Part shown: piece by piece, positions 8,934 through 22,205 of the stretch | Layout: every line of letters starts with the position of its first letter | How positions within the stretch are numbered: position 1 is the stretch's first letter | Origin: Pantoea agglomerans | GTDB taxonomy: Bacteria > Pseudomonadota > Gammaproteobacteria > Enterobacterales > Enterobacteriaceae | NCBI RefSeq assembly: GCF_021397715.1 | Contig: NZ_CP090207.1 | Location: 3,472,001 to 3,536,000 of the forward strand | DNA length: 64,000 nucleotides | Direction of reading: 5' to 3' | Made by a program: the position numbers and the translations under genes | The notes under the pieces: generated by a model | Told to the model about the DNA's origin: nothing | Database searches by the model: none | What the model saw: the letters and a program-made list of their open reading frames with translations, nothing else

Positions 8934-10082
8934 ATGAACATTAACAGCACGGTGATTAGCGGTTATCAGGCGTTAAACGACATGCGCTATCTGCTGAAGG
9001 GGATATCGACAGCAGTCGTGGTCACTGACCGGAACATTGAGGCTATTCCGGCAGTGCAGGCGCTGATGGTTCAACTTCGGGATCAGATTCCGGGTATCAG
9101 CGTGGTCAACAGCGTCCCGCCTGAACCAAGCCAGCATGATGTGGCAGCGATTATCGCGACGCTCTCCCGGCCCCATGTCGATATGGTGATTGGCATCGGC
9201 GGCGGCAGCGTGCTGGATGTGGCGAAGCTGCTCTCAGTACTGTGCATCGACGCCGCGCCTTCGCTGGACGCCCTGCTGGCAGGCGAAAAACCGCAGCGCC
9301 GTACCCGTTCAATACTGATCCCTACCACCGCAGGCACGGGTTCTGAGGCGACGCCCAATGCGATCCTGGCGATCCCGGAGAAAGAGACCAAAGTCGGCAT
9401 TATTTCACCAGTGATGCTGCCCGATGTGGTGGCCCTGGTGCCGGAACTGACCACCAGCATGCCGGCCCACATCGCCTCTTCAACCGGTATTGACGCCCTC
9501 TGCCATCTGATTGAGTGCTTTACCGCCAATGTCGCCAACCCGGTCAGCGACAACTATGCGCTGACTGGGATGAAGAAACTGTTCGCTAATCTCGAAACCA
9601 CCCTGCGCGAGCCAGAAAATTTGCAGGCACGCCTGGAGATGCTCTGGGCCTCTTATTATGGCGGTGCATCGATTGCCCATGCCGGGACACATCTGGTGCA
9701 TGCCCTCTCTTACCCGCTCGGCGGCAGATATCATCTGCCACACGGCGTCGCCAACGCCATCCTGCTGGCTCCCTGCATGCGCTTTGTCCGTCCGGCGGCG
9801 GTGAGCAAATTCGCTCAGGCCTATGATCTGCTGCCCGACGCCGACGTCCGTTTAAGCGATGAAGAGAAATCACACGCGCTGGTCGACTACTTCACCGCGC
9901 TGGTAGCGCGGCTGCAGCTGCCTGCCAGCCTGGAAGCCCTGGGCATCAGCCCGGATCACCTGCCCTGGTTAGTGGAAGCCGCGCTCGACGTCCAGCGTCT
10001 GATGAACAACGTGCCGATGGCGGTCACCGCCGACGATGTGCGCGCCGTCTACCTGACGCTTTTCCCTTCCTGCCAGGCGTAA
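8934..10082 (+). CDS. Iron-containing alcohol dehydrogenase family protein
   Basis: 382 residues of the group III (Fe-type) alcohol dehydrogenase family. The nucleotide motif GGGS is at 89-92, GTGSEAT at 134-140, and the metal ligands Asp187, His191, His256 and His270 are all present, so the enzyme should be active. Typical substrates are small hydroxy-aldehydes, hydroxyacids or diols; which one cannot be told here. AAGGG lies about 7 nt before the ATG. It is the first gene of the plus-strand operon, with the DapA-like gene starting 11 bp after its stop. In context it may oxidise or reduce an aldehyde feeding the four-carbon acid route (inference). Confidence 0.92.
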   Translation: MNINSTVISGYQALNDMRYLLKGISTAVVVTDRNIEAIPAVQALMVQLRDQIPGISVVNSVPPEPSQHDVAAIIATLSRPHVDMVIGIGGGSVLDVAKLLSVLCIDAAPSLDALLAGEKPQRRTRSILIPTTAGTGSEATPNAILAIPEKETKVGIISPVMLPDVVALVPELTTSMPAHIASSTGIDALCHLIECFTANVANPVSDNYALTGMKKLFANLETTLREPENLQARLEMLWASYYGGASIAHAGTHLVHALSYPLGGRYHLPHGVANAILLAPCMRFVRPAAVSKFAQAYDLLPDADVRLSDEEKSHALVDYFTALVARLQLPASLEALGISPDHLPWLVEAALDVQRLMNNVPMAVTADDVRAVYLTLFPSCQA

Positions 10083-10093
10083 TGAGGATTGTC

Positions 10094-10978
10094 ATGAATA
10101 AGAAAATAAACGGCGTACTGACCGCCATCGTCACCACTTTTGACCGGGAAGGTGCCTTTGATCCGGAGAGGCAGCGCGAACAGGTCAGACGCCAGATCAA
10201 CGCCGGTAACGGCATCTTCTGCGGCGGTACCAACGGCGAATTCTTTGTGCTGAACGAGCAGGAGAAGATCGCGGTTACCACCACCTGCGTCGATGAAGTT
10301 AACGGCCGGATGCCGGTGGTGGCGCACATCGGAGAGATTTCGACCCGTGAAACTATCCGGCTAGGCAAACAGATTGCCAATCTTGGCGTAGATGCTGTCT
10401 CCGCGATCACGCCGTGGTTTGTTCCGCTTAAACAGCAGGAGCTGATCGACCACTATCAGCGCGTGGCTGACGCGCTTACGGTGCCGCTGTTCCTCTACAA
10501 CATCCCGGCGCGTACCGGCAATACTTTGCAGCCAGAGACCGTTCATACGCTGGCCGCGCACCCGAACATCATCGGCATTAAAGATTCAGCAGGCAGCTAT
10601 GAAAGTCTGAGCGGCTTTCTGCAGGCTACCGCCGACTGCCAGGACTTTGATGTGCTGAACGGCCCGGATTCGCTGATCCACCAGGGTTTCGTGGATGGCT
10701 GCTCCGCCTCAATTTCCGGGCTGGCAAACGTGGCGCCAGAGGCGATTAACGCCATCTGGGCGCGCTTCCATGCGGGCGATATTGCCGGTTCGCATCAGGC
10801 ACAGGAGAACGTCACCGGCCTGCGCACCGCGCTTTACAGCATCGGTTTCTCACCGGCCGCCGTGAAAAAAGCGGTCAGCCTCCAGGGCTTTGAGGTGGGT
10901 GAAAGCCGCTATGCGGTGCAGTTCAGCGCCGAAGAGCAGCAGCAGATCCGTCAAATCGTGAACCACTACCTGCGATAA
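10094..10978 (+). CDS. DapA/NanA superfamily class I aldolase (dihydrodipicolinate synthase family)
   Basis: 294-residue TIM-barrel lyase. The Schiff-base lysine is Lys163 (GIKDSAG) and the active-site tyrosine Tyr135 (LYNIPARTG). The pyruvate-carboxylate loop reads GGTNGEF at 44-50 rather than the usual GTTGE. The family condenses or cleaves pyruvate with an aldehyde, as in NanA, KDG aldolase and DapA; it is not housekeeping DapA judging by context. Cleavage of a 2-keto-3-deoxy acid to pyruvate plus a short aldose would fit a cluster with a four-carbon aldonate kinase, but this is inference. The ATG at 10094 has GAGG 6 nt upstream and is preferred to the ATG at 10082. Confidence 0.9.
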   Translation: MNKKINGVLTAIVTTFDREGAFDPERQREQVRRQINAGNGIFCGGTNGEFFVLNEQEKIAVTTTCVDEVNGRMPVVAHIGEISTRETIRLGKQIANLGVDAVSAITPWFVPLKQQELIDHYQRVADALTVPLFLYNIPARTGNTLQPETVHTLAAHPNIIGIKDSAGSYESLSGFLQATADCQDFDVLNGPDSLIHQGFVDGCSASISGLANVAPEAINAIWARFHAGDIAGSHQAQENVTGLRTALYSIGFSPAAVKKAVSLQGFEVGESRYAVQFSAEEQQQIRQIVNHYLR

Positions 10979-19514: not shown

Positions 19515-20411
19515 ATGCATAAAACGACACTCGAACAGTGGTTCCTGCTCGACTCGGTAGTAAAGGAAGGCAGTTTTGCGCTGGCGGCAGAAAAAAATAA
19601 CCGTAGCCAGTCCTCAGTCAGCTATCAGATTGGCCTGTTGCAGCAGCGACTGGACATCGCGCTACTGCAACAAGAAGGACGACGCGCGGTACTGACGGCG
19701 GAGGGCGAGCAGTTGCTGGCGCAGGCGCGTCCGCTGCTGACCGGTTTTAGCAGCCTGGAAGCGCAGGCTGCCGCCTTGCAGCGCGGTGAACCCTCGCGTG
19801 TCGACCTGATGGTCGATGCCATTGCGCCCAAGCCACTGCTGTTTACGGTGCTGCATCAGTTTCAGCAGCGTTATCCGCACGTCCGCGTCTGGTTCAGCGA
19901 AATCGTCCGCAGCGAAACGCCCGCCAGACTGGCGGAGCAGCAGGCCGATCTCTGGCTGGTAGCGCGCAGTGATGACGAACCGTTAGCCGGGGAAAGTCTG
20001 ATGAGCGTTGACTTTATTGCGGTCGCTCATCGCGATCATCCTCTGCACAGCGAGCCGGCACCGCTCAGTGCCGCCGCTCTGGCGCGCTGGCCCTGCATCA
20101 CCATCCTCGATCGCCAGCAACAGCAGCAGTCAGAGGTCAGCGGTGAGCAGGCCGAGAACTGGTCGTTCACCACCCTGTCGGCAGCCATTGAGGCGGTGCA
20201 GCATCAGCTGGGCTATGGCTGGTTGCCGGAGAAGAACATTGCCGCGCTACTGGCCAGCGGCGAGCTGCGCCCGCTCCCGCTGCTGCAGGGCCGTAGACGC
20301 TCAACCTCGCTGATGCTGCGCATTAATGAAGAGAGATTGCCAGGCAATGCGGCGATCGCCGTACTGGCGCAGATGTTTATCGACCAGGTGGCGGTTGATC
20401 GGCAGAGTTGA
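19515..20411 (+). CDS. LysR family transcriptional regulator (probable regulator of padC)
   Basis: 298 residues: N-terminal winged helix-turn-helix (about 5-63, with FALAAEKNNRSQSSVSYQIGLLQQRL) and a C-terminal periplasmic-binding-protein-like effector domain (about 92-290). The recognition region is slightly unusual in reading SQSSVSYQI where most LysR proteins have SQPAVSxQI. It is divergent from padC, the common arrangement for a LysR activator controlling its neighbour with an aromatic acid as co-inducer (inference). A run of five Gln (about 203-208) lies in the effector domain. A CRISPR remnant begins 45 bp after its stop. Confidence 0.92.
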   Translation: MHKTTLEQWFLLDSVVKEGSFALAAEKNNRSQSSVSYQIGLLQQRLDIALLQQEGRRAVLTAEGEQLLAQARPLLTGFSSLEAQAAALQRGEPSRVDLMVDAIAPKPLLFTVLHQFQQRYPHVRVWFSEIVRSETPARLAEQQADLWLVARSDDEPLAGESLMSVDFIAVAHRDHPLHSEPAPLSAAALARWPCITILDRQQQQQSEVSGEQAENWSFTTLSAAIEAVQHQLGYGWLPEKNIAALLASGELRPLPLLQGRRRSTSLMLRINEERLPGNAAIAVLAQMFIDQVAVDRQS

Positions 20412-20455
20412 TGGGTTGTGGATGGTTTGCGCGAGAGGATGAGTAAGGGTTGAGG

Positions 20456-20545
20456 TGGTTTTTCCCGGTTGGTGTGGGGAACACGATTAGGGCCGGACCG
20501 GATTCTGGCTCAGGCACGGTTTATCCCCGCTCGCGCGGGGAACAC
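20456..20545 (-). CRISPR. Minimal type I-E CRISPR array: two repeats, one spacer
   Basis: Two 29-bp repeats, 20517-20545 and 20456-20484, begin exactly 61 bp apart and enclose a 32-bp spacer (20485-20516). The first has the canonical I-E form; on the plus strand it reads GGTTTATCCCCGC then CGCGGGGAACAC with an inverted-repeat core. The second shares about 22 of 28 positions. In crRNA orientation (minus strand) the intact repeat is leader-proximal and the decayed one is the trailer-end repeat, as expected for a real array. No cas gene lies in the window. Decayed or shrunken orphan array is the likely state. Confidence 0.85.
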
Positions 20546-20599
20546 TCTAAAATTATCCGTTTGATTACTAACTACTTTTCAGCCACCACTGATTCTACC
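20546..20599 (-). promoter_or_regulatory. CRISPR leader remnant
   Basis: AT-rich sequence directly upstream of the intact repeat. Read on the minus strand, it runs from GGTAGA to TTTTAGA immediately before GTGTTCCCC. This resembles the E. coli type I-E leader as I remember it, which also has GGTAGA, then a GGCT-(A)n block, and ends in TTTAGA at the first repeat. An alignment is needed to confirm. Confidence 0.6.
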
Positions 20600-20658
20600 G
20601 AATTTTACACCCAGACTTAACCCAAATGCACACTTAATCGCCAGCACAAAATTCAGGC

Positions 20659-20687
20659 AAAAAAAAGCTCCCGTAAAGGGAGCTTTT
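20659..20687 (-). terminator. Rho-independent terminator of lpd
   Basis: AGCTCCC (20667-20673) and GGGAGCT (20678-20684) form a stem with a GTAA loop; on the minus strand it is followed by a run of eight T, about 20 nt after the lpd stop. Strong intrinsic terminator. Confidence 0.92.
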
Positions 20688-20704
20688 CTATTGGGCAATG
20701 AGGC

Positions 20705-22129
20705 TTATTTCTTTTTCGCTTTCGCGTTAGGCAGATCGGTGATGCTGCCTTCAAAGATTTCTGCCGCCAGACCCACAGACTCGTGCAGCGTCGGGTGAGC
20801 ATGGATGGTCAGCGCAATATCTTCCGCATCACAACCCATCTCGATCGCCAGACCGATTTCACCCAGCAGCTCGCCGCCGTTGGTGCCGACAATCGCGCCA
20901 CCGATCACCCGGTGCGTCTCTTTGTCGAAAATCAGTTTGGTGATGCCGTCTGCACAGTCAGAAGCGATAGCACGACCTGAGGCTGCCCACGGGAAGGTGG
21001 CGGTCTCGTAGCTGATGCCTTTCTCTTTCGCTTCTTTCTCGGTCAGACCAACCCAGGCAACTTCTGGCTCGGTATAGGCGATGGATGGGATCACTTTCGG
21101 ATCGAAGTAGTGCTTCAGACCGGAGATCACTTCCGCCGCGACGTGGCCTTCATGCACGCCTTTGTGCGCCAGCATTGGCTGACCGACGATGTCGCCGATA
21201 GCGTAGATGTGCGGCACATTGGTACGCATCTGCTTGTCGACGCGAATGAAGCCGCGATCGTCCACTTCCACGCCCGCTTTGCCGGCATCCAGACCTTTGC
21301 CATTCGGTACACGACCGATAGCCACCAGCACCGCATCGTAACGCTGTGCTTCGCCTGGTGCTTTTTTGCCTTCCATGGAAACGTAAATGCCATCGTCTTT
21401 TGCTTCAACGGCGGTCACTTTGGTTTCCAGCATCAGGTTAAATTTCTTGCTGATTTTTTTGGTGAAGACTTTCACCACATCTTTATCCGCAGCCGGGATA
21501 ACCTGATCGAACATCTCGACCACATCGATCTCTGAACCCAGCGCATGGTAGACCGTCGCCATTTCCAGACCGATGATACCGCCACCCATAACCAGCAGGC
21601 GCTTCGGTACTTCTTTCAGCTCCAGCGCATCGGTTGAGTCCCAGACGCGTGGATCTTCATGTGGAATGAACGGCAGTTCGATTGGGCGTGAACCCGCAGC
21701 GATGATGGCGTTATCGAAGTTGATGGTGGTCGCGCCGCCTTCTCCTTCAACCACCAGCGTGTTAGCACCGGTGAATTTGCCCAGGCCGTTAACCACTTTC
21801 ACTTTACGACCTTTTGCCATACCTGACAGGCCGCCAGTTAACTGGTTAATTACCTTTTCTTTCCAGCTGCGAATTTTGTTGATATCAGTCGATGGCTGAC
21901 CAAACACAATGCCGTGCTCTTCAAGGGCTTTCGCCTCTTCAATCACTTTAGCAACGTGCAGCAGCGCTTTAGATGGGATACAACCGACGTTCAGACAAAC
22001 ACCGCCAAGGGTGCTGTAACGCTCTACCAGTACGGTTTCCAGACCTAAATCCGCGCAACGGAAGGCTGCAGAGTAACCTGCAGGACCCGCCCCAAGTACT
22101 ACGACCTGGGTTTTAATCTCTGTACTCAT
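20705..22129 (-). CDS. lpd: Dihydrolipoamide dehydrogenase (E3)
   Basis: FAD enzyme that reoxidises dihydrolipoyl groups of pyruvate and 2-oxoglutarate dehydrogenases and the glycine cleavage system. 474 residues, same as E. coli Lpd. Features in order: FAD motif VVVLGAGPAGYSAA (9-22), redox disulfide GGVCLNVGCIPSK (about 42-54), NAD motif MGGGIIGLEMA, and the C-terminal active-site HAHPTLHE. The second of two adjacent ATGs (22129) has better spacing from AGAGG. It has its own promoter, so it can be made independently of pdhR-aceEF, and a strong terminator. Confidence 0.98.
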   Translation of the reverse strand: MSTEIKTQVVVLGAGPAGYSAAFRCADLGLETVLVERYSTLGGVCLNVGCIPSKALLHVAKVIEEAKALEEHGIVFGQPSTDINKIRSWKEKVINQLTGGLSGMAKGRKVKVVNGLGKFTGANTLVVEGEGGATTINFDNAIIAAGSRPIELPFIPHEDPRVWDSTDALELKEVPKRLLVMGGGIIGLEMATVYHALGSEIDVVEMFDQVIPAADKDVVKVFTKKISKKFNLMLETKVTAVEAKDDGIYVSMEGKKAPGEAQRYDAVLVAIGRVPNGKGLDAGKAGVEVDDRGFIRVDKQMRTNVPHIYAIGDIVGQPMLAHKGVHEGHVAAEVISGLKHYFDPKVIPSIAYTEPEVAWVGLTEKEAKEKGISYETATFPWAASGRAIASDCADGITKLIFDKETHRVIGGAIVGTNGGELLGEIGLAIEMGCDAEDIALTIHAHPTLHESVGLAAEIFEGSITDLPNAKAKKK

Positions 22130-22205
22130 CATGACCTCTTATTTGATATCCGGCGGGTCAGACGTTCTTATGATGCCCTTGTTCCACCGGGACTTTCACC
22201 GCAAG

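Follow-up and report, generated by a model that had tools for sequence, protein, structure and literature searches.

A single-spacer type I-E CRISPR array between lpd and a LysR gene of Pantoea agglomerans, very probably a relic

We analyzed a window of Pantoea agglomerans DNA (the whole stretch of 64,000 nucleotides) and found that the minus strand at positions 20664-20456 carries a full CRISPR leader, one intact type I-E repeat, a 32-nt spacer and a decayed terminal repeat. The array is type I-E by its structure and a relic by its context. Very probably it is the non-functional remainder of a locus whose cas operon has been lost and whose spacer has since drifted. We favour this reading because no cas match was found in the own genome, because the spacer has drifted, and because the same site is decaying in relatives; a leader and a first repeat that are both intact speak against it, as this is not required of a long-dead array. 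A sequence-only reading of this DNA had described an orphan one-spacer I-E array with a leader between the LysR gene and lpd, possibly a relic. Both points are borne out by the present analysis. The array is real but ordinary, a fresh instance of a known phenomenon.

Anatomy of the array and its leader

On the minus strand the array begins with its leader, at the lpd side, and extends in the direction of the LysR gene. The features are, in window coordinates:

20705..22132, minus strand: presumably lpd (dihydrolipoamide dehydrogenase), as named in the earlier reading; it neighbours the array here and arrays or cas genes in relatives
20659..20690, minus strand: hairpin with a T-run that follows lpd, taken by eye for the lpd terminator
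20546..20664, minus strand: CRISPR leader, full length, ending in ...ATAATTTTAGA beside the first repeat; defined by alignments to other Pantoea leaders
20517..20545, minus strand: leader-proximal repeat R1, intact (GTGTTCCCCGCGCGAGCGGGGATAAACCG); the same sequence recurs in repeats of genomes G015 and G084 and in the oldest repeat of a second array in the own genome
20485..20516, minus strand: 32-nt spacer whose source, as judged from sequence matches, is a temperate-phage tyrosine integrase gene; it carries three substitutions private to it (crRNA positions 4, 19 and 29)
20456..20484, minus strand: decayed terminal repeat R2; its distance from LysR is close to that seen for the terminal repeat in P. 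brenneri
19515..20411, plus strand: LysR-family regulator, the other neighbour (Pfam PF00126 and PF03466)

The two repeat copies flank the 32-bp spacer with an exact 61-bp period, and the period, the spacer length and the contrast between an intact leader-proximal and a decayed distal repeat were all correctly read before: R1 is an exact I-E-type repeat, whereas in R2 7 of the 29 positions are changed. Type I-E arrays of Enterobacterales have a 29-nt repeat, a 32-nt spacer and an AT-rich leader. The window array is like them in its 29-nt repeat sequence, in its 61-bp period and 32-nt spacer, in the position of the leader, at the GTGTTCCCC side of the repeat, and in the phage origin of its spacer. 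It is unlike them in having one spacer only, a decayed terminal repeat and no cas match in its own genome.

Just these two sites in the 64-kb window, on either strand, lie within 9 mismatches of the repeat. In 100 shuffles of the whole window that preserved its dinucleotide composition, no single match to the repeat came closer than 8 mismatches, and paired repeats (each with at most 7 mismatches, 60-62 bp apart) were absent. This control rules out a chance repeat. Membership of a dispersed REP-like family, raised earlier as the competing identity of the repeats, is not supported, because the repeat search of the own genome (E <= 0.001) gave matches only at the lpd site and at one other array.

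Two points of the sequence-only reading had to be revised, namely that the leader is a remnant and that it ends at 20599. The leader is full length and reaches 20664. Over all 148 bases, R1 plus leader (20517-20664) is 93% identical to the second array of the own genome and, again over all 148, 87% identical to P. brenneri (G062). In G084, G078, G031, G025, G015 and G081 the identity was 72-84% over 112 to 148 bases. The hairpin at 20659..20690 lies directly upstream of the leader, and the homology to the second array extends into it. A consensus promoter and terminator scan of positions 20400-20720 flagged nothing: it returned no sigma-70-like promoter, and it missed the lpd hairpin seen by eye as well. 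Between the window and P. brenneri, the leader and the 3′ flank of lpd differ at 29 of 159 aligned sites. Set against the fourfold sites of the two neighbouring genes (35/254 different in lpd, 50/147 in LysR), the divergence of the leader gives no sign of unusual constraint, the test being a coarse one.

The spacer and its phage target

In crRNA sense the spacer matches a tyrosine integrase gene (PF00589). The match covers 29 of 32 positions in genome G024 and in seven IMG/VR contigs, with the identical three mismatches, and 28 of 32 in Pantoea phage PA-1 (E 0.02 taken alone). When 300 shuffled spacers were compared with the same sequences, the best of them had 9 mismatches. The spacer is of mobile-element origin, as in a type I-E array. 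Among plasmids the spacer gave 9 records, none reaching 80% coverage.

The comparison was extended to 82 integrase loci (the best 80 of 125 viral ones, G024 and PA-1). Three were set aside, their best ungapped match lying elsewhere, and 79 align at the spacer site. The mismatches at positions 4, 19 and 29 are present in all 79 of these aligned loci. Read in frame, the spacer gives D*GRTGFWLR, with a stop codon, where the close targets give DKGRIGFWLM. The private changes sit at first and second codon positions and alter amino acids; the listed phage variants often differ at third codon positions (for example spacer positions 6, 18 and 30). Judged by this contrast in the aligned sequences, the spacer most likely mutated after its capture, although the three changes could already have been present in an unsampled phage. 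Spacer mismatches that are private and non-synonymous and include a stop codon may, as this case suggests, serve as a sign of a relic array.

AAG is the protospacer-adjacent motif in E. coli. The sequence-only reading had proposed a spacer search together with a check for an AAG-type motif; the search was rewarded by the integrase matches, while the motif was found in part only. The best matches, PA-1 and G024 among them, have AAA before the protospacer; 32 of the 82 loci have AAG there, the best of these (L199, L201 and two further loci with the same sequence as L201) with 4 mismatches. The mismatch at position 4 lies in the seed, and the target base there is A. The relevant extracts of PMC13122317 describe position 4 as sensitive chiefly to target changes to C or G, and target changes to A or T as often tolerated; on the strength of these extracts, this mismatch alone need not abolish interference.

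In a set of 150 spacers from 21 loci and the window, which includes some artefacts of both-strand reading, the spacers of the own genome occurred in no other array. The only shared spacers were those of P. brenneri and a duplicate record of it, and two that recur within G015.

Cas genes and the lpd-LysR site in relatives

The earlier proposal to search the genome for cas genes and for arrays with the same repeat yielded one further array and no cas match. Genome-wide searches of the own genome, which has 5 contigs and a completeness of 100, covered four families, and Cse1, Cas1, Cas6e and the N-terminal part of Cas3 were all without a match. In the E. coli genome used as control, the Pfam model of Cas1 gave a match but those of Cse1 and Cas6e did not. 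The Cse1 and Cas6e absences are therefore weak alone, and the Cas1 and Cas3 results carry most of the weight. For the four families searched, the cas3-cascade-cas1-cas2 set of a functional I-E system was not found in the same genome as the array.

By LysR protein identity, P. brenneri at 95% and P. conspicua at 94% are the nearest named relatives. The genome sample has one member per species, so that sister strains with cas genes may exist. In this sample, R1 plus leader matched 11 of 61 Pantoea genomes, the own one included, the match spanning 35 to 60 bases only in G060, G026 and G073. In ten of the eleven, one such match adjoins lpd, with LysR on the opposite side; in G084 neither fetched array region contains lpd, and its lpd site falls outside the comparison. 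Together with G016, which came from a separate search, 11 Pantoea genomes bear traces of an array at the lpd-LysR site. They form a decay series. At least two repeats are present in G000, G062, G015, G025 and G031 (nine in G031, five or six in G062, five in G025), a single repeat within 5 mismatches in G060, G073, G078 and G081, and no repeat in G016 and in P. conspicua (G026), where part of the distal leader survives. The 61-bp periodicity, for which the loci of relatives were to be inspected according to the sequence-only reading, is present in relatives. Between lpd and LysR, G060 has a 33-aa piece of cas1 (E 7e-8). In Pantoea sp. IMH the locus that contains lpd also has an array of 13 repeats, at a distance of about 3 kb from LysR. 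Loci with a LysR relative numbered 80; in four of them, all from Pantoea, the fetched stretch included lpd.

At the same chromosomal site, G015 (L143) shows the order LysR, 19-repeat array, cas1, cas6e, cas5e, cas7e, cse2, cse1, cas3, decayed array, lpd. It is like the window in site, in repeat and in an lpd-side leader that can be aligned along its length (72%), and differs in keeping these seven cas genes and two arrays. Its cas3 (L143 9846-12506) is read in two ORFs; long uninterrupted cas3 frames occur in other genera. Because of this split, the G015 system, the sole near-complete operon found in the genus sample, may be inactive as well.

Cas3 was found in 80 of 392 genomes of the family, and the loci of the nine best were fetched. 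The fetched region contains lpd in four of the nine and lacks it in five. A cas3 gene or a piece of one adjoins lpd in G254, G115 and G148, and lies about 6.6 kb from it in G273. In the 18 kb fetched from G254, cas3 and a cse1 piece stand beside an array, while G148 retains pieces of cas3 and cas1. The simplest history is a I-E locus at lpd in an ancestor, followed by repeated erosion. A gain of the G015 operon into an older array site is not favoured, because cas genes adjoin lpd in other genera.

Applied to the window, this history would place a former type I-E CRISPR-Cas locus between lpd and LysR, where G015 still has one. Its cas operon, presumably present in the own ancestor, would have been lost in this lineage, perhaps by a deletion that ran from one flanking array to the other, or between their repeats. 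This would have left a single spacer and repeat, together with the leader on the lpd side and the terminal repeat beside LysR. The gene order, with an lpd-side leader and a LysR-side trailer, fits such a deletion; alignment to the G015 trailer gave no decision. The spacer would stem from a temperate phage, having been taken up from its integrase gene, and would since have acquired its three substitutions by drift, with no selection for the match; probably no useful crRNA is made.

This one site documents the death of a CRISPR-Cas system, from a near-complete operon with two arrays, through longer orphan arrays and single repeats, to a scrap of leader, and other genera add partial operons beside lpd to the picture. 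The presence of an array looks like a poor proxy for immunity in Pantoea, because Cse1 was matched in 2 and Cas1 in 1 of the 61 genomes, against 11 of 61 for repeat plus leader (in some of them over no more than 35-60 bases). In E. coli, orphan I-F arrays persist after cas loss (Almendros et al. 2016, as cited in extracts of PMC8616872), and the window array is like them, as there described, in being a small array that remains once the cas genes of its type are all gone. Extracts of PMC10882544 report that strain DBM 3797 of P. agglomerans lacks both arrays and cas genes. In the open-licence literature we found no title or abstract on an array at the lpd site; coverage in print is wider.

A second array in the genome and alternative readings

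The other array of the own genome (C1:2918850-2919209) has six repeats within 9 mismatches. Its repeat-leader stretch is closer to the window (93%) than is the lpd site of P. brenneri (87%), and the likeness runs into the lpd terminator and ends at an insertion-sequence-like end. The array lies inside an insert of about 1.2 kb (L148 about 9610-10798, C1:2918609-2919797), whose ends are imperfect inverted repeats (22/25) and which has a 9-bp target duplication, ACGTTTGTC, at both sides. P. conspicua has an empty, uninterrupted site with ACTTTTGTC once. In five other relatives compared, the distance between the flanking matches is 96 to 463 bases, against about 1.4 kb here, and no array match was found; the insert is therefore missing there too. 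The right part of the insert has no further copy in the own genome. The small reading frame of the insert, a transposase-like fragment that may be IS4-like, gave no Pfam family. The second array seems to be a copy of the lpd array made by transposition.

The four leader-proximal repeats of this array share one derived base, and the two distal repeats are without it. This suggests that spacers were added after copying, and hence that the loss of Cas1-Cas2 came later; gene conversion of leaders could also have produced the pattern. The first spacer matches a Klebsiella phage tail gene at 31 of 32 positions, with CAA before the match, and is better preserved than the window spacer (29/32).

These observations bear on the possibility that the lpd array is still usable, incoming Cas proteins brought by horizontal transfer adding spacers to it and using its guide. 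We consider this unlikely. The leader aligns along its full length with other Pantoea leaders, R1 is exact, and the derived base of the second array suggests that spacers were gained with the same type of leader. Against it stand the own genome, where no cas match was found, and the origin of the 13 plasmid records that match Cse1, none of which is from Pantoea and all of which have less than 60% identity. In addition, the spacer matches none of the 79 aligned targets with fewer than three mismatches, one of which falls in the seed, and AAA instead of AAG precedes the targets in PA-1 and G024. Use by Cas proteins encoded elsewhere, which the sequence-only reading had left room for, is not supported by these data.

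Improbable in our judgement is the idea that lpd-type units of leader and repeat are mobile, re-usable docking sites, which are copied with insertion-sequence ends, kept after cas loss and refilled when Cas1-Cas2 are regained. If so, arrays would outlive and outnumber cas operons in Pantoea.

For the further suggestion that the array was kept for another reason, we found no positive evidence. A regulatory mini-array, that is, a CreA- or CreR-like guide sending Cascade to a promoter, or a conserved small RNA, is very doubtful. Its layout of one spacer between an intact and a degenerate repeat is the one that viral mini-arrays share in the extracts of PMC8616872. Such a guide needs Cascade, however, and Cse1 and Cas6e were not found (with models that both missed the E. 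coli control). The creA genes described in extracts of PMC8501985 have two repeats and no leader, unlike the window array, so that neither the Cascade nor the lack of a leader expected of a CreTA/CreR guide is seen here. Moreover, the spacer matches a phage integrase, and it occurs neither in P. brenneri nor in any other array examined. Scarcely credible is an anti-cas array that keeps I-E systems out: such a role is reported for orphan E. coli I-F arrays, whose spacers target cas genes (extracts of PMC8616872), whereas the window spacer matches phage integrase genes, and the matches in G015 lie at arrays and leaders, none being listed inside cas genes (E <= 0.001). The reading of the lpd array as a dead relic is retained.

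Elsewhere in the genus, four loci of G025 and G084 (L145, L146, L147 and L154) carry arrays of 10 to 19 repeats, most of them within 1-2 mismatches of the consensus; these two genomes have no Cse1 or Cas1 match, and the fetched regions contain no lpd. A Cascade-only I-E set (L144 7698-12610; cse1, cse2, cas6e, cas7e, cas5e) was found in G010, a genome that gave no Cas1 match and whose fetched 16 kb gave no Cas3 match. Behind this set lies an array with six or more very variable repeats, spaced at 60-62 bp.
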